Origin: a virus
IMG/VR virus record: IMGVR_UViG_3300037264_005791
Coordinates: 1-38,608 of that record
Direction: 5' to 3' (one strand)
DNA length: 38,608 nt
Shown piece by piece: positions 2-26,763 of this stretch; within the stretch, counting starts at the first letter, position 1, and the number at the start of each line of letters is the position of its first letter. The position numbers and the translations under genes are program-made. The notes under the pieces were generated by a model. That model searched no databases and was not told the origin of the DNA. It worked only from the letters and a program-made list of their open reading frames with translations.

Positions 2-493
2 GCCAGCAGGCTTACCGTGGGTGCCAGTTGTGGGCTTGCCAACCCCAGGCTTGCAAACAGGCGGCTTGCCACAACCAGGCTTATCGCCAGGCTTGCAAAC
101 AGGCGGCTTGCCACAACCAGGCTTATCGCCAGGCTTGCAATGACCATAGGCATGACCTTGGCCATGATTGCCAGGTTTGCCACAACCAGGCTTATCGCCA
201 GGCTTGCAATGACCATAAGCATTGCCTTGCCCATTATTCCCAGGTTTGCCACATCCAGGCTTACCGCCAGGCTTGCAATGACCATAAGCATTGCCTTGCC
301 CATTATTCCCAGGTTTGCCACATCCAGGCTTACCGTGCCCATTACCATTAGATGGTGGTTTGCACGGTGGGGGAGTCGGCTTACAAACAGGTGGTTTTGG
401 CTTCGGCGGCGGCGGATTAGTAGCAAACGCTATACCGCAGGTCCAAAACACAACAGCCAAACCAGTAACACATACAGTAATCAATCTCTTCAT
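2..493 (-). CDS. Secreted Gly/Pro/Lys/Cys repeat protein (3' end off window)
   Basis: An open frame runs on the minus strand from ATG at 493 to the window edge with no stop, so it is partial at its C-terminus. It begins with a clear signal peptide (MKRLITVCVTGLAVVFWTCG, then IAFA), so the product is probably exported. A proline-rich stretch (NPPPPKPKPPVCKP) follows. Then come imperfect 23-residue repeats built on GKPGNNGQGNAYGHCKPG and 14-residue repeats of the type PVCKPGDKPGCGKP. The regular Cys, His and Lys spacing suggests a disulfide-linked or metal-binding extended chain, but I recognise no family. The ATG overlaps the stop of the upstream gene (ATGA), so it belongs to the operon that starts at the dNMP kinase. 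Function unknown; an envelope or virion-surface role is a guess. Confidence 0.75.
   Translation of the reverse strand, partial: MKRLITVCVTGLAVVFWTCGIAFATNPPPPKPKPPVCKPTPPPCKPPSNGNGHGKPGCGKPGNNGQGNAYGHCKPGGKPGCGKPGNNGQGNAYGHCKPGDKPGCGKPGNHGQGHAYGHCKPGDKPGCGKPPVCKPGDKPGCGKPPVCKPGVGKPTTGTHGKPAG
53..340. repeat. Tandem repeats inside the secreted-protein gene
   Basis: The word caggtttgcc recurs at 172, 241 and 310, giving a 69-bp unit (23 codons). A shorter 42-bp unit (14 codons) recurs at 53 and 95. Both periods are multiples of three and keep the minus-strand reading frame open, so this is a coding minisatellite and not a CRISPR array or origin iteron. Copy number is likely to vary among relatives. 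Confidence 0.85.
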
Positions 494-17217: not shown

Positions 17218-18783
17218 TTATCCCACCCTTTCTCCATCAGAAGGTTCAAATTTTGTTCCTTTGACACTGATCTTGTCAATCACTGTCTCCGTGCGGTCAG
17301 TGTCATTATCCCTAGTTTCCGTCATTTCGGCCATGTAAGTATGGTAACTGATCTCCTCCATTTTCAAGGTCTGATCCTTGAAATGATACCTAATTTTAAA
17401 GTCAAAACGACTTCTACCGTCTCTAGTCTTAGCAATAAACCCACGACCTACATTCGCTTTTTCTTCTTGTTTAATTCTGTTCAATGTTAGGAAGAAATCA
17501 AAAACTCGGTCCTGTTTGAAAGCATCGGCCTGATTGCTTTCGTCCATGAATTCTTCAAGCGTTAATTCCGTGGCCGATTTATTCGGGTGTAAGGCCATTA
17601 GAGAACAATGCTTCTCTTCCACACCAAAACCACGAATACTTTGTAACAAATAGAACCTAGCATCCCAAGGTGAAATACCAGCCTGCACCTTCATGTCGCC
17701 TGGATAATCATAAACCATCAAATCTGGCTTGAATCCAAGCATGACAGCTTGTGCATAATAAGCACGCACTGTTGACATATCCGCACTGCCAGATGGAAAC
17801 TGTTTGATAATTAACCTTCGCTTATCTTCATAATCACCAACCGTATTCTTCAATGCTGCCCAAACCTCTTCTTTACGCAGCATTAACTGATGCTGGCCAA
17901 TGTTACTAAGCATCGCGTCAAACCGACTTGCGATGCGGTCTTGATCCATTTCAGTTGATAGATACAGCACCTTCTTGCCCCTGGCAACATTCAATCCAGA
18001 AACCCATGTGAGCCACAAAGACTTGCCACCACCGCTTTTTGCCATTACCGCACCAAGCTCACCTCTACGCAAACCACCACCAACCAGAGCAGCATCCGCC
18101 GACCTAAATCCCATTGTAAATGTTTCTTGATAGGCTTCCTCATGTTGAATCCTGGCATATCTGTCTTCGGTTGTTTCAAAATAATTAAGACCCATATCGA
18201 AATTGCGATTGACCAGACGAGCTTCCTTATACAAATAGTCAATTTTATCCCAAGTCTCATCAGATTCAGGGTTCTTTCGCATTAACTCAATAGACTTGGC
18301 AAACGCAGCTTTAGTAGCTTGGGTCTTAGCGAAGGCGGCTATACGATCCAAAATTGCATCAGTGGAGTCCAGCATAGGAAACATGTTCCCTATACCACCC
18401 TTGTTATAATAATCGTATAGAAGATTAATTTCAGTGGAATAAAGGAGCTTAATTGCTCGGTAACTATCGTCCTGATTTGGATATCGCTTTTTCAGAAAGT
18501 CATCCATCAATTCTTTGACGAATATCTTGCTGGGCGGCTGTTTGTATTCATCGAAATACTTGAACAACACCCTGCATACGTTCTGATGAACTTCGCTCCT
18601 GAAGTAGATAGGCTTAATTAAGGTGACACTCTGACAAAGGAAGAATCGGTTGCAGAGCAGCGTGCCCAACAACATCCGAAGGAATTCATCGTTATAAGGA
18701 TACTTGGGTTCTTCTACTGACTTGCTTGGATCGACCAGGGAATCTAAAACTATTTGATCTTGTTCGTTGAGTTTATTTTCCAT
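17218..18783 (-). CDS. DnaB/gp41-like replicative helicase
   Basis: This 521-residue hexameric helicase drives the phage fork. The RecA-like C-terminal domain has Walker A AKSGGGKS (248-255), the next strand KKVLYLSTEMDQDRIASRF, and Walker B DLMVYDYPGD. The N-terminal 200 residues are helical, as in DnaB. Its start (ATG 18783) overlaps the stop of the VWA membrane protein gene (TAATG), so helicase translation is coupled to the Bat-like operon. A longer start exists but lies wholly inside the upstream gene. Confidence 0.9.
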   Translation of the reverse strand: MENKLNEQDQIVLDSLVDPSKSVEEPKYPYNDEFLRMLLGTLLCNRFFLCQSVTLIKPIYFRSEVHQNVCRVLFKYFDEYKQPPSKIFVKELMDDFLKKRYPNQDDSYRAIKLLYSTEINLLYDYYNKGGIGNMFPMLDSTDAILDRIAAFAKTQATKAAFAKSIELMRKNPESDETWDKIDYLYKEARLVNRNFDMGLNYFETTEDRYARIQHEEAYQETFTMGFRSADAALVGGGLRRGELGAVMAKSGGGKSLWLTWVSGLNVARGKKVLYLSTEMDQDRIASRFDAMLSNIGQHQLMLRKEEVWAALKNTVGDYEDKRRLIIKQFPSGSADMSTVRAYYAQAVMLGFKPDLMVYDYPGDMKVQAGISPWDARFYLLQSIRGFGVEEKHCSLMALHPNKSATELTLEEFMDESNQADAFKQDRVFDFFLTLNRIKQEEKANVGRGFIAKTRDGRSRFDFKIRYHFKDQTLKMEEISYHTYMAEMTETRDNDTDRTETVIDKISVKGTKFEPSDGERVG

Positions 18784-19811
18784 TACCACACCTTGTTTAA
18801 TAACAGACACAGCATTAAGAGGCAAACTGTAACAGAAAATAAATAGGGTTGCAAATACAATTTTTCTAACTTAGTTTTTTCAGAAACTAACTTTCTATTC
18901 TCTTTAATAACCTTGTCCAAATCAGAAGATAAAGCCGTAGAAGCATTTAGACTATAATAAGTTCCATTTCCATTATCCGCAATTTGTTTCAAAATTTCTT
19001 CATCCAATTGCGACGTTGCAATTTGATTGTTGTTGTCAGTAATATAACGAACAAAGCCACCCTTACTGTCCCGCACAATCAAGGGTGCGGCTTTGCCACT
19101 ACCAACGCCTACTGTATAAATCTTGAAATTCTTGGAAGACAACTCCCGTGTTATCTGGAGGAGTTTGATCCTATTTGTTGCCAGCGCCTCTTCTTTGCCA
19201 CCATCTGAGAGCAATATTACAATGTTGAGGCCCGACTTGTCAATTTTATCTTTCTTAATGTAAATATTTTGTATCGCTTCCATCGCCTTAGTCAAATCCG
19301 TGCCCAACGTTGGTGCAGACCGCCAATCCAATTCATCCAACGCACCAAAAAACGAAAGCTTCGTCCTGGTAAAAGGACAGAAATATGGATTCACGTCACC
19401 AGCAAATGGTAGAATCGAACATTCGTAAATACCATCCAATGACGTGTAAAAATCCCTGATTTGCTTGCGAGTAGCCTCCAAACGATTTGGGGGAACATCT
19501 TCCGCATAAACCATCGAACGAGATACATCGACCACAAAAATAATACGAATGTTTGAATACTCTTTATCCTTCGCAGAAATATAAACATATGGCTCCGCAA
19601 ACGCCACCATACAAGCAGTGATAGCAACAAAATAAGCCACATAGACAAATATCCTACGCCGCCAGGCTGGAATGTTGCTATAAGCCAAGAAGTCATTAAG
19701 GTCTGGAACTTCATTAAGCTTTCTTAATACTGTTATTGCCCATATTAAGGAACCTAATATGGGCAATAACAGTATTAAGAACCAAAATGCGATGGGTCTA
19801 TCAAAGTGCAT
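18783..19811 (-). CDS. VWA membrane protein, BatB/BatA-like
   Basis: This 342-residue protein has two N-terminal membrane segments (about residues 8-29 and 54-72), an extracytoplasmic or cytoplasmic von Willebrand A domain, and a C-terminal membrane segment (about 322-340). The metal-binding MIDAS is complete: DVSRS (95-99), Thr171 in GTDL, and Asp203 in LLSDGG. This is the BatA/BatB layout of MoxR-linked complexes. Codons 11-31 form a perfect inverted repeat in the DNA (19721-19781). It begins two bases after the TPR-like gene and ends in TAATG with the helicase gene. In Bat systems such proteins support envelope integrity or complex assembly. Confidence 0.85.
   Translation of the reverse strand: MHFDRPIAFWFLILLLPILGSLIWAITVLRKLNEVPDLNDFLAYSNIPAWRRRIFVYVAYFVAITACMVAFAEPYVYISAKDKEYSNIRIIFVVDVSRSMVYAEDVPPNRLEATRKQIRDFYTSLDGIYECSILPFAGDVNPYFCPFTRTKLSFFGALDELDWRSAPTLGTDLTKAMEAIQNIYIKKDKIDKSGLNIVILLSDGGKEEALATNRIKLLQITRELSSKNFKIYTVGVGSGKAAPLIVRDSKGGFVRYITDNNNQIATSQLDEEILKQIADNGNGTYYSLNASTALSSDLDKVIKENRKLVSEKTKLEKLYLQPYLFSVTVCLLMLCLLLNKVW
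19721..19781. repeat. Perfect 27-bp inverted repeat inside VWA gene
   Basis: Left arm 19721-19747 (ttcttaatactgttattgcc and 7 more bases) and right arm 19755-19781 are exact reverse complements around a 7-base spacer (aggaacc). It codes for residues 11-31, the first membrane segment, of the VWA protein, about 30 bases after its start codon. In the mRNA it would make a very stable hairpin, near enough to the start to influence translation or attract RNase III. Confidence 0.95.
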
Positions 19812-19813
19812 GA

Positions 19814-20614
19814 TTAATTACCAGTTGATCTACCAACACCATACTTCTTACTACTCAACGCCTGCTTCTTTCTTGCCTGCGGATCATTTGCATTAGCGAG
19901 TAAACTGCTCTGATTCTTAATCAGAATCTCAATATTAACAACTGTGTTAACATCTCTATTCCTGCTGCGGAGAGCATACTTGTAGTAAGTTAATGTCTGA
20001 TTAAATAACTCTTGAGCAGAGTCGGGGTCAGCCATCAACTCCAAAATACGATAATATATCTCGCCTTTAAGATAATTCATATGGTAATCAAAATTAGGAT
20101 TACCAATGTCCTTTAGCTTCTCTGCTTCTTTCCTTGCCTTCTCATATAACACCATAGCCTTATTCAAATTAACTAAAGTTAATGGGTGTAACTCCCGCTG
20201 AGGCGGTGGAATTTGCTCTGGTTGATGGTCGGGATTCTCTGGATCAGGTTCAGGTGGCGGTAGCGGCCCCTGATTTGGAACCGCTACCGCATTCTCAATT
20301 TCAATTGCCTTCCGCAAGTGGTCTTCCGCTTCGTTAAACAAAAATGCCGCTCTCTTAAATGTAATGGTCGGCGTAATTCGCTCCTGATATTCCTTCGGCA
20401 ATTCCTGCATCGCAACTTCAGCCTTAGCCAAATCCGCATTCGACTTAGCACTATTGACCATGCCACGAACCCTGTTTTCTAAAAGCTGCTCGTCATAGGC
20501 TTGATTGATTTTTAAAGTCATATAATCATCATCATCTTTTTCCATGTTGGAAAAATAATGAACAGAAAATACACCAACCACAACAAACATCAAGCCAATT
20601 ACTAACTTTTTCAT
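19814..20614 (-). CDS. Membrane-anchored TPR-like protein, BatC-like
   Basis: ATG 20614 follows GAGG and lies one base after the upstream stop. The 266-residue product has an N-terminal signal anchor (MKKLVIGLMFVVVGVFSVHY), a helical region, a proline-rich linker (GPLPPPEPDPENPDHQPEQI), and helices resembling tetratricopeptide repeats (LVNLNKAMVLYEKARKEAEK, then YLKGEIYYRILELMADPDSA and FNQTLTYYKYALRSRNRDVN). In Bat operons a TPR protein (BatC) commonly sits beside the VWA pair, so the context supports this role. No enzymatic motif. Confidence 0.75.
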   Translation of the reverse strand: MKKLVIGLMFVVVGVFSVHYFSNMEKDDDDYMTLKINQAYDEQLLENRVRGMVNSAKSNADLAKAEVAMQELPKEYQERITPTITFKRAAFLFNEAEDHLRKAIEIENAVAVPNQGPLPPPEPDPENPDHQPEQIPPPQRELHPLTLVNLNKAMVLYEKARKEAEKLKDIGNPNFDYHMNYLKGEIYYRILELMADPDSAQELFNQTLTYYKYALRSRNRDVNTVVNIEILIKNQSSLLANANDPQARKKQALSSKKYGVGRSTGN

Positions 20615-20615
20615 A

Positions 20616-21671
20616 TTAAACCTCTGTAAAATTAAGTTGGATGGTCGTATGGATGAGGAACCCAACCAATATAAACCAAAGTCCAATGCCACCAAATATC
20701 TCGGACAAAGAGTGATCCACACTCTGCTCTTTAACAACGTATTCGTTGGCTTGACTTACCACAATCTCATTGTAAATATCTTCCAATCGCTTCTTGCCAA
20801 ATTCCTTGATAACATCTCCCCGACCACCCGTTTCTTTACAGAACTTAACCAATTGTTGATCCAATTCATAGATAGAGATAAAATAGACTCGAATGCCTAT
20901 CATCTTACAAAAGTCAATAATCTTATAGGATGACATCTTCCTTTGATTGCCGTGGGCATTAAAAACACCATCCGTAAAGATTATAATAGAACTGCCAACA
21001 AACTTATCCTTATTAACCACAATAGACTTAATGAAATCGTCAGGCTTCATTTGTGTTTCTTGACCATAGAACTTAAACTGTAGTTTGGTTAGATCGTCCT
21101 GATTAATGGCATCATTGTGCGAGAGTAACATTTCCACACCAGCCCATAAACCAGCCTCAATATCCGTGCCTTGAGCTAATGGTTGTAATCTATAATCAAT
21201 GCGCTTTAATTTTTGCTGAACAAATCGTGGATCGTCAGTCAATCCAGATATCGTAAAAGCATCATTAGAAAAAACAACCGCACCGACCAAATCCTTGCTA
21301 CCATCCTCACGATTACCCAGGAATTCAAAAAGCTTATCATTACCAGATATTAACGCTGTTAATTGCTCGCCAATACCATTTTCCTTGCGATTATCAACCA
21401 TAGAACCACTACCATCGTTAACCAGAACATACTTGTGAACTTGGTAGACTTTGATCTTTTCCGTCGCACTAAAAACAAAATTGGCGGCGGCAAGTGTAAT
21501 GAAGAAAGCCCCAAACAACATGAAATACTGCCACTTGAGATAAGTCTTCACTGTTCGGCCACGCAAGTTCTCAAGACAAGCATGACGGAAATAAAACTTA
21601 ACCCTGTTTCTGAAATAGAAGTAAACAGGGAAAAGCAGCAGCAATAGTAACAGGTATGGATTCTGGATCAT
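20616..21671 (-). CDS. VWA membrane protein, BatA-like
   Basis: This 351-residue protein has two N-terminal membrane helices (about 5-20 and 49-68), a VWA domain with MIDAS DGSGS (86-90), Thr169 in GTDIEAG and Asp234 in IFTDG, and a C-terminal membrane helix (about 325-345). The first motif is preceded by Asn where many have Asp or Val, with the chelating residues intact. It starts inside the BatD-like stop (ATGA). Two VWA proteins in one operon match BatA plus BatB. Sequence similarity between the two is low apart from motifs, so they are not a recent duplication. Confidence 0.85.
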   Translation of the reverse strand: MIQNPYLLLLLLLFPVYFYFRNRVKFYFRHACLENLRGRTVKTYLKWQYFMLFGAFFITLAAANFVFSATEKIKVYQVHKYVLVNDGSGSMVDNRKENGIGEQLTALISGNDKLFEFLGNREDGSKDLVGAVVFSNDAFTISGLTDDPRFVQQKLKRIDYRLQPLAQGTDIEAGLWAGVEMLLSHNDAINQDDLTKLQFKFYGQETQMKPDDFIKSIVVNKDKFVGSSIIIFTDGVFNAHGNQRKMSSYKIIDFCKMIGIRVYFISIYELDQQLVKFCKETGGRGDVIKEFGKKRLEDIYNEIVVSQANEYVVKEQSVDHSLSEIFGGIGLWFILVGFLIHTTIQLNFTEV

Positions 21672-23086
21672 CGGTATTTACGATCTTTGCAGAAGGTCTT
21701 CACAAAGTCCCTAAGACTCTCAGGGTTCAACGGAACACTAGGCTGATACATCTTATCCAATTCATCTATCAAATACTTAAAACTGTTGGTACAGTGCGGA
21801 AGGTCTACCGAGTATAAAGATACTCCAAACACAACAGTCATTAAATGATTCAAATTGCTTGATACCAACTTGTAGTAAGCATAATGGGTATCAGCATCAC
21901 AATTCTTCAAATCCTTCCACAGTTGCTCAACTTCATCTTCTGTTAGCCAACGTGATACAGACTTCTTCAAAGACACCAGCGCCCCACCCAAGAACATAGC
22001 CGCCATACTGAAACATATGAAACTAATACCAAGCTTGATATATGAATACAAAACTTTGTTCGGATTCTCCGTCTTAGGGAATCCGACTGGACGTAGAAGA
22101 AGCAAATCTAAACCATCGTTAGTGCGGGGCTGAATATCATCCACATCAGTCCCAGCAATAACACTACGAATACCATACTGGTAAGTATTCGTCTTAATGG
22201 TATACAACTCGCCACCTTTTTCATAGGTCACAAGTATTGGCTGAAAAACAAAGGTGCCATACTGTAACTGTCTGAAACGAAAACTCACTATGACTGTCTT
22301 TCCCTTAGTTGTCTTTACTTCCGTTATCTCTGGCGGCGACGAATCAAACCAAACTTCTCCAGCGAATGGGAATGGGAGTAAACTCTGACCAAGCTGCGGA
22401 AGAAGATCAGTCCGAACATTTACATCAGTGCTAAATACGTCGATAGTCACCTTGAAGTTGCGTAGCTCACCAAGATCACTAATAGCTGGCGTTTCCACAG
22501 AAACGTTAGCTTTTACAAAGCCGTCTATTGGTATCCACGCCACCATAGCGGTCTTAGTCCAAAAAGTATCCTTGGCGATAAGGTTGGCTAAAACCATAAC
22601 GTTAGCTGGATTCTTCAAACCCTCCACTTTAAGCAAATAAAATTTAGACTTTAGTTCGCGGAGACTAAACTTAGCGTCAGCAACCTTGTTCAACCTTTTC
22701 AGAAAATCTTCTTGGGTCACACTTGGATGCACCTGCACCAATATTTCATTTGTTACCGCACATTCAATGCCGTTGAATATTATGACAGGATAAGCAGGAT
22801 ATTTACCCACACACTTATTCAACGCTGTAAGCGTATCCACCTTGTTGTTAAAAAACAACAACAACCCATCAAGGTCACTTGTGCGAATATCCTTAAAATG
22901 TTCTAGGGGCAGCTTGTCGGCAAATTTAAGAAACTCTTCCTTATCCTTGGGTTTTGAAAGGTCAACATATATCTTGTTGACCATAGGCAATCCCCTGGAC
23001 TGAAGATTTTCGTCATAATAATGGAAGTCTTCCGCCCTATAAGACGGCAGTAGCATAGCGGCGAGAAGCAACATAGTGTTCATCAT
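21668..23086 (-). CDS. Exported single-span membrane protein, BatD-like by position
   Basis: This 472-residue protein starts at TAATG shared with the DUF58 gene stop; a second ATG follows directly. It has a signal peptide (MMNTMLLLAAMLLPSYRA), a large extracytoplasmic part of beta-sandwich character (FKVTIDVFSTDVNVRTDLLP, TVIVSFRFRQLQYGTFVFQP), one membrane helix at about 345-372 and a 100-residue cytoplasmic tail. That is the BatD architecture (oxygen-tolerance family), though sequence identity could not be judged. Ends in ATGA with the VWA gene. Role as periplasmic arm of the complex is inferred. Confidence 0.65.
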   Translation of the reverse strand: MMNTMLLLAAMLLPSYRAEDFHYYDENLQSRGLPMVNKIYVDLSKPKDKEEFLKFADKLPLEHFKDIRTSDLDGLLLFFNNKVDTLTALNKCVGKYPAYPVIIFNGIECAVTNEILVQVHPSVTQEDFLKRLNKVADAKFSLRELKSKFYLLKVEGLKNPANVMVLANLIAKDTFWTKTAMVAWIPIDGFVKANVSVETPAISDLGELRNFKVTIDVFSTDVNVRTDLLPQLGQSLLPFPFAGEVWFDSSPPEITEVKTTKGKTVIVSFRFRQLQYGTFVFQPILVTYEKGGELYTIKTNTYQYGIRSVIAGTDVDDIQPRTNDGLDLLLLRPVGFPKTENPNKVLYSYIKLGISFICFSMAAMFLGGALVSLKKSVSRWLTEDEVEQLWKDLKNCDADTHYAYYKLVSSNLNHLMTVVFGVSLYSVDLPHCTNSFKYLIDELDKMYQPSVPLNPESLRDFVKTFCKDRKYR

Positions 23087-23916
23087 TAAGACCTCATTAG
23101 GTGCTTTATAAGCGGTAAAAGAAACTGTTCCTGTTTTACATCTAGGAAAACAGCATCACTATTACAGTGAAGAAGTTTCTTCTTTAATTCTAATCTCCAA
23201 TAATCAAAGTCAGATTTTGCCGACTCTGCACTGCAACTCTGCACTTCTCCTGTCTCTGCATCCCTAAAAGTTATGTTCAATGGCTGTTTCAGGGACATTA
23301 GCCAATCAACAGGGCTATACAAAACCACATTCAAGAAGGTGTTGGTGGGAACCAAAGCCATTTTTTTGATATTGTTTAATATCGAATCTTTCAAAGGATA
23401 ACAAAAATCAGAAATAAAAACAATCATGGAATTCGTCAAAGATAGACTGGAAACCTTCCTGATGCCATCCTCTACCCCTGTTTTCTTCTCCATCTTCAAT
23501 TCATTAAGCGATTTCTCAATCAGCCCAACAACCGAAGAATAATCATCAGTTACATCCGTCGTGGTCATCACATGGTCTGAAAACAAACACATCCCAACCC
23601 GCTCATTGCATATGTCGCCAAGATAGCACAGGTAAAGGGCGGTAATGATAGCGGCATCCAACTTCGAGTATTGGGACGAGCTTATATCTAAGATGATAAA
23701 TAAATTCAAGGAACGTTCAGGGTTAAATACCCTGGACATAGTTTTACCAGTCTTTAAACTGGATTTACTATCCAGCCGCTTATCGCCAGGCTGATATTCA
23801 CGGACCACATCCACTTCAATTAGACTGTCTTTAAGTAGTGTGTTGTGAAGACCAGAGGAAAAAGCGTCCAGATATTTCTTAGCATTAAATTCAAGTGCGC
23901 GAAATCGCTTTTTCAT
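23086..23916 (-). CDS. DUF58 protein with VWA-like fold
   Basis: This 276-residue protein shows the DUF58 signature REYQPGDKRLDSKSSLKTGK (39-58), then LFIILDISSSQYSKLDAAI with a DxSxS MIDAS (77-81), and a later strand MIVFISDFCYP. DUF58 proteins accompany MoxR ATPases and are thought to be their cytosolic partner. ATG 23916 overlaps the upstream stop (ATGA); the longer version runs backward into that gene. No membrane segment. Its place between MoxR and the VWA membrane proteins is the standard bacterial order. Confidence 0.88.
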   Translation of the reverse strand: MKKRFRALEFNAKKYLDAFSSGLHNTLLKDSLIEVDVVREYQPGDKRLDSKSSLKTGKTMSRVFNPERSLNLFIILDISSSQYSKLDAAIITALYLCYLGDICNERVGMCLFSDHVMTTTDVTDDYSSVVGLIEKSLNELKMEKKTGVEDGIRKVSSLSLTNSMIVFISDFCYPLKDSILNNIKKMALVPTNTFLNVVLYSPVDWLMSLKQPLNITFRDAETGEVQSCSAESAKSDFDYWRLELKKKLLHCNSDAVFLDVKQEQFLLPLIKHLMRS

Positions 23917-24122
23917 GTTATTTCTCTGCGTGTCGGTCCCCACGGATACTTCATTTCTGCGAAAACATCTACTTTGACCACTTTACCATCAACACGCATA
24001 GATTTCCAATCATCGGGACTATCCATAAGTTCCGCAGCTTCTAATACATTGGTGCGAAAATCCCAACTGCTACACCAAACGTAATAAGCCCCATCGTCAT
24101 ATTTCCATGCATATTTAATCAC
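23913..24122 (-). CDS. Small protein within the Bat-like operon
   Basis: This 69-residue, Trp- and Tyr-rich protein (MIKYAWKYDDGAYYVWCSSW...) starts with GTG overlapping the MoxR stop (GTGA) and ends overlapping the DUF58 ATG (ATGA). Coupling at both ends makes it a real gene. I know no counterpart in bacterial Bat operons, so it may be phage-specific. Confidence 0.65.
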   Translation of the reverse strand: MIKYAWKYDDGAYYVWCSSWDFRTNVLEAAELMDSPDDWKSMRVDGKVVKVDVFAEMKYPWGPTRREIT

Positions 24123-26197
24123 AGTCCAACCTTATTCAATGCCTGGTTAATTAGATTATCAACTAATTGTGTTTCACTCTGATACTTGCCAGGGAGTGAA
24201 GAAAGCAATAAATGAAGCGCAGAATCGGCTACAATAAGTCTAACCCTGAAAACATCCGCAGCAACTGCCACAACGTCATACGGCGTTACATAGTCCCGCT
24301 GCTGCATAATCGCTTCCATCATCGCCGCACCTTCTAGGTGGAGCATGGAACGATCATTCATAGCTGGCTTCTGTTTAAACAATGGGTCAGTCCCTATAAC
24401 TTCCCGCTCATCCTTAAACATACCTAAATCTTCTGGATGGTTTATAGAATGAATTAGTCTTGCACAATAGCGCCTTGTCTCGTCGCTAACATACACCTTA
24501 TCGAAAAGTTGTTCTCTAGATTCACAAACTAAGACATTATTTACGATTGATTTCATACCCGATAGATCGAAATTGTGAGTTCGTTTCGCAATTTCAATTT
24601 TCTCATCTTCTGTAGTCTCCCGCATAACCAACTTAAACATGAAGCGGTCAGCAAGAGCTTCCTGAATACGGCTAGTCCCCTTCTGCTCAGTTGGGTTCTG
24701 AGTTGCTAGGCAAAAGAATGGTTGTGCTAATTTGTAAGTTTCATTGGCAATCGTTACAGAACCTTCAGCCAACGCTTCGATGAAAGCATTTTGTGCTTTA
24801 GGAGGAAATCTATTGATTTCGTCAGCTAGCAAGACGTTACAGAATAATGGACCCTGGACCGTCTTGGTATTGCCTGTAAGAAGAATAATTTCGCAGCCTG
24901 TGATATCACTGGCAAGTGCATCAGGCATACCACTAACACGCTTGTTATTGCCTGCTAATAGTCGGGCTAACAACTTACAAAGGACGGTATTGTGAGTTAC
25001 TGTAAAATCACCTAATAAGAAAAGCCTATCAGGACCAGAAATTTCAAACCCAAAATATTCACCTTTCCCCACAGATGTTACTTTAATTCCAGAAACCAAC
25101 ACATCTTTTTTCTGTTTCCTTTTACTGGCTTTCTTTCTCTTGATTTTGACTGGAATAATTGAGGTGTCTCCAGAAATAAAAAACCTATAATACTGACCTT
25201 TTACACCATTATTTACACAAGTTTTTTCACAAGGTTTAATGTAAGCTGCAAATCCCAAAGACCTAGCTATAAAAACTAAATCCTCGGCCAACCTTTTATT
25301 TTTCAATACACAATCATAGCCATTGCAAGTGAAATGACCATCTGTATCCATCATCCCAGCTAAAACTTGCAGTCTAACTTCTCTTGTGTTAAATTTGTAA
25401 ATATTCGGAACGTGTTTATTCATTAAAATGTTTAATGATCTCAATTTGTTAAGAATTGAATTACTGCTTCCTTTATTTGTGCTTAATGCATAATTAGGAC
25501 ACTTATTTTTATATTTCTTTTCAACAAACCTTAACCTATAATCACTGGCAACTTTTGCACAATATTTAATTATAGCATCATCAGTATTACATACTTCTGG
25601 ATGTCTTGATATGCCATCCCCTAACCAGACACCCAAGAAGTAAGAATCCAGAGGAACTTTCTTCTTATCAAAATCTACGCCAACTCTATAAGTTTTGGCA
25701 CGATGTTTAAATGTTTTATTACTATTGAGATAATCTTTGACAGATATGTTAACTATTTTTCTTTGTTCACCTTTATATTTTGGAGTTATCTTAAGAGACA
25801 AAATATGCTCAGAATTAACAACATAGGATTCGCCTTTCACGGGCGAAACATCATACATTTCATCAAACCCATGCCCAAGAGAAATTACTTTCCTTGACTT
25901 GGAATCTGGTCCCATTAAAAGGTCGCCCACTTTCACATCTTCTACATTCTTAATGCTACCATCGAACATTAGTACAGGAGTGCCTTTTGCCAAACACTTT
26001 CCAGTGCCTGTTCCGCCTTCGCAAAGGACGTGTCCCGTGCCCAAAAACCTTGAGCCATCAGGATAAAAGTCACGCTGGCCTACGGCAAAAAGAGCCATAA
26101 CAACACGATTAATAACATGTCGTTGGCCCACGATGACTGACTCTATAGAGTCTCTTAACGGGAAGATATACTGATTAAGCAAATTATCAAATTTCAT
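24119..26197 (-). CDS. MoxR-type AAA+ ATPase, intein-containing precursor
   Basis: The 692-residue precursor holds a 336-residue intein inside a 356-residue MoxR ATPase. Extein motifs: Walker A GGTGTGK/T split by the intein after Lys67, Walker B LLADEINRFPPKAQNAFIEA, and sensor 1 CLATQNPTEQKGTSRIQEAL ADRF, all near-textbook MoxR. MoxR proteins are chaperone-like ATPases that act with VWA partners to mature protein complexes. ATG 26197 overlaps the Nudix stop (ATGA). The product can bind ATP properly only after protein splicing, so splicing may gate activity of the whole Bat-like complex. Confidence 0.92.
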   Translation of the reverse strand: MKFDNLLNQYIFPLRDSIESVIVGQRHVINRVVMALFAVGQRDFYPDGSRFLGTGHVLCEGGTGTGKCLAKGTPVLMFDGSIKNVEDVKVGDLLMGPDSKSRKVISLGHGFDEMYDVSPVKGESYVVNSEHILSLKITPKYKGEQRKIVNISVKDYLNSNKTFKHRAKTYRVGVDFDKKKVPLDSYFLGVWLGDGISRHPEVCNTDDAIIKYCAKVASDYRLRFVEKKYKNKCPNYALSTNKGSSNSILNKLRSLNILMNKHVPNIYKFNTREVRLQVLAGMMDTDGHFTCNGYDCVLKNKRLAEDLVFIARSLGFAAYIKPCEKTCVNNGVKGQYYRFFISGDTSIIPVKIKRKKASKRKQKKDVLVSGIKVTSVGKGEYFGFEISGPDRLFLLGDFTVTHNTVLCKLLARLLAGNNKRVSGMPDALASDITGCEIILLTGNTKTVQGPLFCNVLLADEINRFPPKAQNAFIEALAEGSVTIANETYKLAQPFFCLATQNPTEQKGTSRIQEALADRFMFKLVMRETTEDEKIEIAKRTHNFDLSGMKSIVNNVLVCESREQLFDKVYVSDETRRYCARLIHSINHPEDLGMFKDEREVIGTDPLFKQKPAMNDRSMLHLEGAAMMEAIMQQRDYVTPYDVVAVAADVFRVRLIVADSALHLLLSSLPGKYQSETQLVDNLINQALNKVGL
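24989..25996 (-). mobile_element. Intein with LAGLIDADG homing endonuclease
   Basis: The intein starts with Cys1 (CLAKGTPVLMFDG, block A) at 25996 and ends with ...FTVTHN at 24989, followed by Thr+1. The block B-like VNSEHILSL is present. Two dodecapeptide endonuclease motifs are visible, YFLGVWLGDGIS and VLAGMMDTDGHF, so it encodes a full DOD homing endonuclease. It sits exactly in the P-loop (GK|T), a favoured conserved site. All key splicing residues (Cys1, His and Asn at the end, Thr+1) are intact, so it is probably active. Confidence 0.95.
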
Positions 26198-26763
26198 TCT
26201 TCTTCCTCCAGCCATGCATAATGGCCAACAGAATTAAGTGTCACCCTAATCGGATTTTCTTCCATGCCTTTGAAAACCAACATCACTGTATGATAAGCTT
26301 TTTTTCGCCAATTACCATCCAAATCCTGAATTACCCAATCTTTAACACCACGATCCATAAGTGGAATTATCAGACGTAGGTTCGGCATCAAATTCGGCAA
26401 TTTCAATAAATCTGGCATCGGATACCATTTGATTTCTTCAGTCTCTTCAGGTCCAGGCTTTAACTCCTGACGCTGACAAATTGGCACACGAACACAGTGA
26501 ATAATCGAATGACCACCATTGATAACACCTAAATACTCAGGCGGGCAGTAACACATTGGATCATAGTCGGAAACCTGTTCCAAACCAGTTTCTTCAAAAA
26601 GTTCTCTTACGGCAGCATCCACAGGACTTTCGCCTGGATTAAGCTTGCCGCCTGGTAGATTAAGCATTCCTGCTAAGTGTGGCGGCTTGTTTTTCAAAAC
26701 CAATGGTAAACGAGTGTTTGGACCTTCAACAATAGATGGATAAACTACAACGTATTCAATCAT
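26194..26763 (-). CDS. Nudix hydrolase
   Basis: This 189-residue protein has a full Nudix box, GGKLNPGESPVDAAVRELFE ETGLE (about 38-62), with all the metal-binding Glu residues and Gly. It hydrolyses nucleoside diphosphates linked to another group. Candidates are oxidised dNTPs, ADP-ribose or NAD-type compounds, and mRNA caps; sequence alone does not decide. The stop overlaps the MoxR start. An uncommon C-terminal extension (LNSVGHYAWLEEEE) follows the fold. Confidence 0.88.
   Translation of the reverse strand: MIEYVVVYPSIVEGPNTRLPLVLKNKPPHLAGMLNLPGGKLNPGESPVDAAVRELFEETGLEQVSDYDPMCYCPPEYLGVINGGHSIIHCVRVPICQRQELKPGPEETEEIKWYPMPDLLKLPNLMPNLRLIIPLMDRGVKDWVIQDLDGNWRKKAYHTVMLVFKGMEENPIRVTLNSVGHYAWLEEEE

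Follow-up and report, generated by a model that had tools for sequence, protein, structure and literature searches.

The earliest accounts of template switching at quasipalindromes concern T4 rII and yeast; the process has also been shown in E. coli (PMC7202029, PMC8604942). In the Ripley mechanism, known from T4 rII, from E. coli thyA and lacZ reporters, and from yeast CYC1, an imperfect inverted repeat within a gene becomes a perfect one in place (PMC7202029). In Saccharomyces, the arms of inverted repeats in coding genes have been homogenised by template switch, changing several nucleotides and several residues of the protein; a dense phylogeny allowed those events to be polarised, and as many as five residues were replaced (PMC8604942). 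Mitochondrial genes of Nematomorpha contain perfect coding palindromes of up to 284 bp, with a lineage-wide excess in conserved genes and with phase-1 among the favoured registers, and template switching has been proposed as their source; phase-1 is the register that constrains proteins least (PMC6649704). Template-switch copying of DNA can also give rise to new, perfect RNA stems (PMC8794818). So far, most knowledge of the process comes from reporter genes, from yeast, and from the histories of rRNAs and microRNAs.

How does the locus described here compare with these systems? It is a perfect palindrome in the gene for a VWA membrane protein, within a 38,608-nt stretch of phage DNA ("the window"), and it is probably a mutational footprint, i.e., a coding quasipalindrome perfected by intramolecular polymerase template switching during phage DNA replication. 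First, it resembles the Ripley cases in that an imperfect repeat within a gene appears to have been made perfect in place; unlike them, it has 27 perfect pairs and lies in a natural, apparently functional gene rather than in a laboratory mutant, and the event is read from relatives (PMC7202029). Second, it shares with the yeast cases a multi-nucleotide, multi-residue change by copying between arms, whereas the window is too diverged for the copied arm to be assigned (PMC8604942). Third, like the Nematomorpha repeats it occurs in a conserved gene, in phase-1 register and possibly as part of a lineage-wide excess, but the Nematomorpha repeats are far more abundant, and here the arms are 14–27 bp and the genomes are those of double-stranded DNA phages (PMC6649704). 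Fourth, a new perfect RNA stem would be the product, with no sign in the window that it was recruited to an RNA function (PMC8794818). The mutational process is of a known kind and the length is unusual; the newer point is the possible lineage-wide excess. A 27-bp palindrome in a conserved phage gene, together with such an excess, would show that fold-back copying changes several residues of a protein at once in natural phages, and would caution against taking hairpins of this sort as regulatory.

The palindrome and its genomic context

The contig is a fragment of a phage genome. It carries a T4-like replication set consisting of a UvsX-like recombinase, a single-strand binding protein, a DnaB-like helicase, a family A DNA polymerase and a dCMP deaminase. 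A preliminary description of this DNA, made from the letters and their open reading frames, was correct in placing the palindrome in a phage, with a helicase gene downstream of the VWA gene (Table 1). The palindrome-bearing gene encodes a 342-aa protein that matches Pfam VWA_2 (1.6e-11) and VWA (2.4e-09), and of the two VWA genes in a MoxR, DUF58, VWA and VWA series, it is the second. We take this series (18783–26215, minus strand) to resemble the bacterial Bat operon. The series sits in the replication region of the phage, and VWA homologues occur in large phage records of up to 595 kb; no bacterial VWA homologue was found in the bacterial genome collection with the patterns used. At 24119–26215 (minus strand), the MoxR AAA+ ATPase gene is split at the P-loop by an intein that has both Hint and homing-endonuclease domains. 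The intein is apparently also present in the MoxR homologue of the distant phage G004 (65% over full length), and is absent from those of G002, LR756511 and G003. The left edge of the window (63–335) holds tandem GGCTTGCCACAACCAGGCTTA-type repeats with a spacing of mostly 69 nt.

Table 1. Positions of the palindrome, its parts and the neighbouring genes in the window
Feature	Position	Strand	Basis or remarks
BatB-like VWA membrane protein gene, 342 aa, holding the palindrome	18783..19811	-	ORF; Pfam; homologues in five phage records
Palindrome 5' arm (mRNA sense)	19755..19781	-	Codons 11-19, FLILLLPIL
Palindrome spacer, 7 nt	19748..19754	-	With its GG and CC also paired, the RNA stem has 29 bp and a 3-nt loop
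Palindrome 3' arm (mRNA sense)	19721..19747	-	Codons 22-31, LIWAITVLRK, first and last codons partial
Inner stem core	19736..19766	-	Gene nt 46-57 with 65-76; proposed ancestral quasipalindrome
DnaB-like replicative helicase gene, downstream, overlapping the end of the VWA gene	17218..18825	-	PHROG 19, 7.6e-53; Pfam DnaB_C, 3.1e-06
Upstream genes: 307-aa protein, BatA-like VWA, 472-aa protein, DUF58, intein-interrupted MoxR AAA+ ATPase	19814..26215	-	

The repeat search in the window ranked this palindrome first among inverted repeats, and reproduced exactly the coordinates, the spacer and the 27/27 complementarity that had been claimed for it. Every one of the 27 pairs is Watson-Crick, with no G-U pair and no mismatch. 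Apart from the palindrome, spacer-limited scans of the window found no arm longer than 15 nt. The repeat falls at codons 11–31, the hydrophobic N-terminal segment that is the first transmembrane segment of the VWA protein. Could hydrophobic codons pair to this extent by chance? The protein sequence is unusually compatible with pairing by itself, and the amino acids of the segment favour it, since synonymous recoding leaves a mean of 17.8 of the 27 positions paired. Full pairing is another matter: none of 20,000 synonymous recodings reached 27/27 (the best reached 26/27, with G-T pairs allowed), perfect arms of at least 27 nt with a spacer of at most 40 are expected about 2.5e-10 times per window, and the longest arm in 12 Markov-simulated windows was 12 nt. 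Together, these trials indicate that the palindrome is real and non-random; the claim that a chance match is extremely improbable holds, and chance pairing can be dismissed for practical purposes.

Comparison with homologues in related phages

Homologues of the VWA protein are found in five related large phages, with identities of 83% (G001/L003), 82% (G002/L004), 65% (LR756511.1/L008), 59% (G003/L009) and 39–40% (G004/L010). The G002 record is 341 kb, and LR756511.1 is a 595-kb uncultured phage. Scans of viral and genome contigs for closer relatives returned only four: L003 and L004, at 82% in the tblastn segment, L009 at 59% and L010 at 39%. All five homologues, at 39–83% identity, keep the VWA protein and lack the palindrome: 11 of the same 27 positions are paired in G001, 10 in G002, and four or five in the homologues at 39–65% identity.

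The closest relatives match the window in length and frame, and the protein is collinear with that of L004, with no gap through codon 40. Hence the palindrome is a rewrite in place rather than an insertion. Insertion is a frequent origin of inverted repeats within genes (PMC6649704), and a palindromic element could have entered this gene as MITEs or Rickettsia palindromic elements enter coding sequence. Such an element would have added length, which is not seen in comparison with the relatives, and both arms here code for residues that are conserved in homologues. The window has no second copy of either arm, and the sole match to an arm fragment among viral contigs is an 18-base stretch in an unrelated 5-kb contig (L005). 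We therefore give an inserted element almost no credence.

A false inverted copy could also have been placed in the contig by a chimeric or fold-back read, through multiple displacement amplification or PCR template switching. Fold-back chimeras are a known artefact, and the 38.6-kb contig is metagenome-assembled and is judged here from the assembly alone. Against this, frame and protein length are kept, similarity to the relatives runs on at either side of the palindrome, and conserved residues lie in both arms (L14, L16, P17 and L19 in one; W24, A25 and K31 in the other). In-frame replacement in place is atypical of fold-back chimeras, and independent contigs from other phages of the family hold similar coding palindromes. 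With the frame intact and conserved residues in both arms, an assembly or library artefact is quite unlikely.

In the two closest relatives, L003 and L004, the same axis carries an imperfect stem: of its 12 core positions, 10 are paired (including G-U), and there is a TT/TT internal mismatch. The protein sequence alone predicts about 8.2 of the 12 core pairs, and the excess over this is not significant by synonymous recoding (P 0.13 and 0.15). A quasipalindrome thus arises here from the protein sequence by itself, through the conserved residues L-P (CTG-CCN) and W-A (TGG-GCN). Over the full length, pairing in the relatives gives P values of 0.39–0.92 against synonymous recoding (0.39–0.65 for L003 and L004). 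The proposed ancestral quasipalindrome is accordingly read from two present-day sequences whose core pairing is at the protein-expected level, not from a reconstructed ancestor.

Can the copied arm be recognised? Across the palindrome, the window shares only about 50% identity with its nearest relatives. The 5' arm matches G002 at 16 of 27 positions and the 3' arm at 13; against G001, the numbers are 13 and 12. One-sided differences between the window arms (6 versus 7–9) likewise place both arms at about equal distance from the relatives. From these sequences, it cannot be told which arm served as the template, and because both arms have diverged, a single template switch is an inferred event and not a reconstructed one.

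A model for the origin of the palindrome

The template-switch explanation can be set out in three steps. First, the first transmembrane segment would already have been an imperfect inverted repeat on this axis, owing to L-P and W-A residues placed eight codons apart (CTG-CCN ... TGG-GCN), a pattern still visible in the two closest relatives. Second, in the lineage of the window, a stalled nascent strand would have folded back on the core, one arm would have templated the other, and the polymerase would have rejoined its normal template. In one event or a few, the second arm would thus have been overwritten, in place, by a sequence reverse-complementary to the first, leaving the length of the gene the same. 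Third, the product would have been tolerated. The register of the palindrome is phase-1, in which a first codon position always faces a first and a second faces a third; this is the most permissive register, which likely explains the tolerance. The segment would have remained hydrophobic because A-ending Leu and Ile codons in one arm yield T-centred (hydrophobic) codons in the other. The lack of any G-U pair among the 27 favours copying at the DNA level, since selection on RNA would not require such perfection.

The preliminary description had named two alternatives, a recent template switch and the retention of an mRNA hairpin. The first of these is supported by the exact palindrome, the same frame and length, the absence of the palindrome from relatives, the imperfect stem on the same axis in the two closest of them, the excess of perfect coding palindromes in the family, and one directed event in a sister phage. 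The hairpin functions that it listed (translation control, an RNase III site and a polymerase pause) are not supported.

The RNA hairpin

The palindrome transcript folds into the 29-bp stem with its 3-nt loop, and the surrounding 141-nt region has a folding energy of -55.5 kcal/mol (z -8.1 relative to dinucleotide shuffles). A selected regulatory hairpin could damp translation, offer RNase III a processing site between the cistrons for VWA and helicase, or cause a pause for membrane insertion, and selection would then account for the perfection of the stem. Several features are in keeping with this: the RNA stem is very stable and lies 30 nt past the start codon, the genes are tightly spaced and operon-like, a stem on this axis also folds in L003 and L004, the nearest relatives, and the L004 stem has a z of about -4 relative to synonymous shuffles and ranks first among 36 windows in its gene. 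However, no relative retains full-length pairing, the pair counts in L003 and L004 are at the level that the protein predicts, no stem forms at the axis in the relatives at greater distance (z -0.4 to -1.9), and the absence of G-U pairs speaks for DNA copying. Compensatory conservation of pairing beyond the need of the protein was not found in the relatives. Substitutions break the pairing freely in all five relatives, the very outcome that the preliminary description had said would count as a refutation; a maintained hairpin is not supported, and a selected regulatory role for the stem is improbable. The stability of the L004 stem would fit a structural role equally well, and leaves some room for a weak one. 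On the template-switch reading, the hairpin in the mRNA would be a by-product of the DNA event, one that may have a modest effect on translation or may attract RNase III.

Scans for terminators and promoters were empty at the sensitivity used, and the palindrome lacks the combination of a G+C-rich stem and a following T run that marks an intrinsic terminator. Rfam returned microRNA precursor models below their gathering scores, as it would for any long hairpin. The alternatives that the analysis gathers under the heading ALTERNATIVES thus fare as follows: a selected hairpin is unsupported by the relatives, an intrinsic terminator or known RNA family was not found at the sensitivity used, an insertion is contradicted, and an artefact is unlikely.

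Coding palindromes across the phage family

Is the palindrome an isolated case? About 0.92 Mb from the family (the window, G001, G002, G003 and LR756511) was scanned for coding perfect palindromes with arms of at least 14 and a spacer of at most 40. Parts of T4, phage G, phiKZ, Atu_ph07, Lak-C1 and LR756502, 200 kb of E. coli K-12, and the distant phage G004 served as controls. The family has 19 such palindromes in 744 kb and the controls have 5 in 1,235 kb (Fisher 5e-5, post hoc). One synonymous shuffle per gene gave no perfect arm of at least 14. Stems of at least 16 divide into 9 perfect and 9 single-mismatch ones in the family, and into 0 and 8 in the controls. Chance would yield single-mismatch stems far more often than perfect ones, so the 9:9 ratio in the family counts for copying. 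Besides that of the window, 17 palindromes fall in genes for which another of these phages has a homologue. The excess is uneven, being high in G002 and G003 and low in LR756511, and it is a lead rather than a result because the tests were devised after seeing the data and the metagenome-assembled genomes are few.

One sister palindrome, with 14-bp arms in G001 (L033:1331-1379), points to the direction of copying. Its LCNRT-coding arm matches the window orthologue at 13 of 14 positions and the other arm at 7 of 14; one-sided differences at broken pairs number 6 versus 0, all six in the second arm. The arm with the invariant CNRT is intact, and its partner deviates from all orthologues exactly toward complementing it. 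Judged from these alignments, the conserved arm has clearly overwritten its partner, in a directed template-switch copy.

It is possible, though we put it forward only tentatively, that this group of huge phages, through a polymerase, a helicase and fold-back processing of its own, replicates with unusually frequent short-range template switching, such that perfect coding palindromes are continually made and re-perfected, a process already proposed for the mitochondria of hairworms. If so, the 27-bp palindrome of the window would be an extreme case, and the process would partly shape protein sequences. Further perfect coding palindromes, with arms of 18–19 nt, are found in G002 (L022:8886-8929 and L022:5405-5450) and G003 (L039:7840-7913), in genes that related phages also have as homologues. 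Perfect inverted repeats also occur outside long ORFs, with arms of 28 nt in G003 (L034:8919-8983) and 26 nt in G004 (L051:2037-2091).
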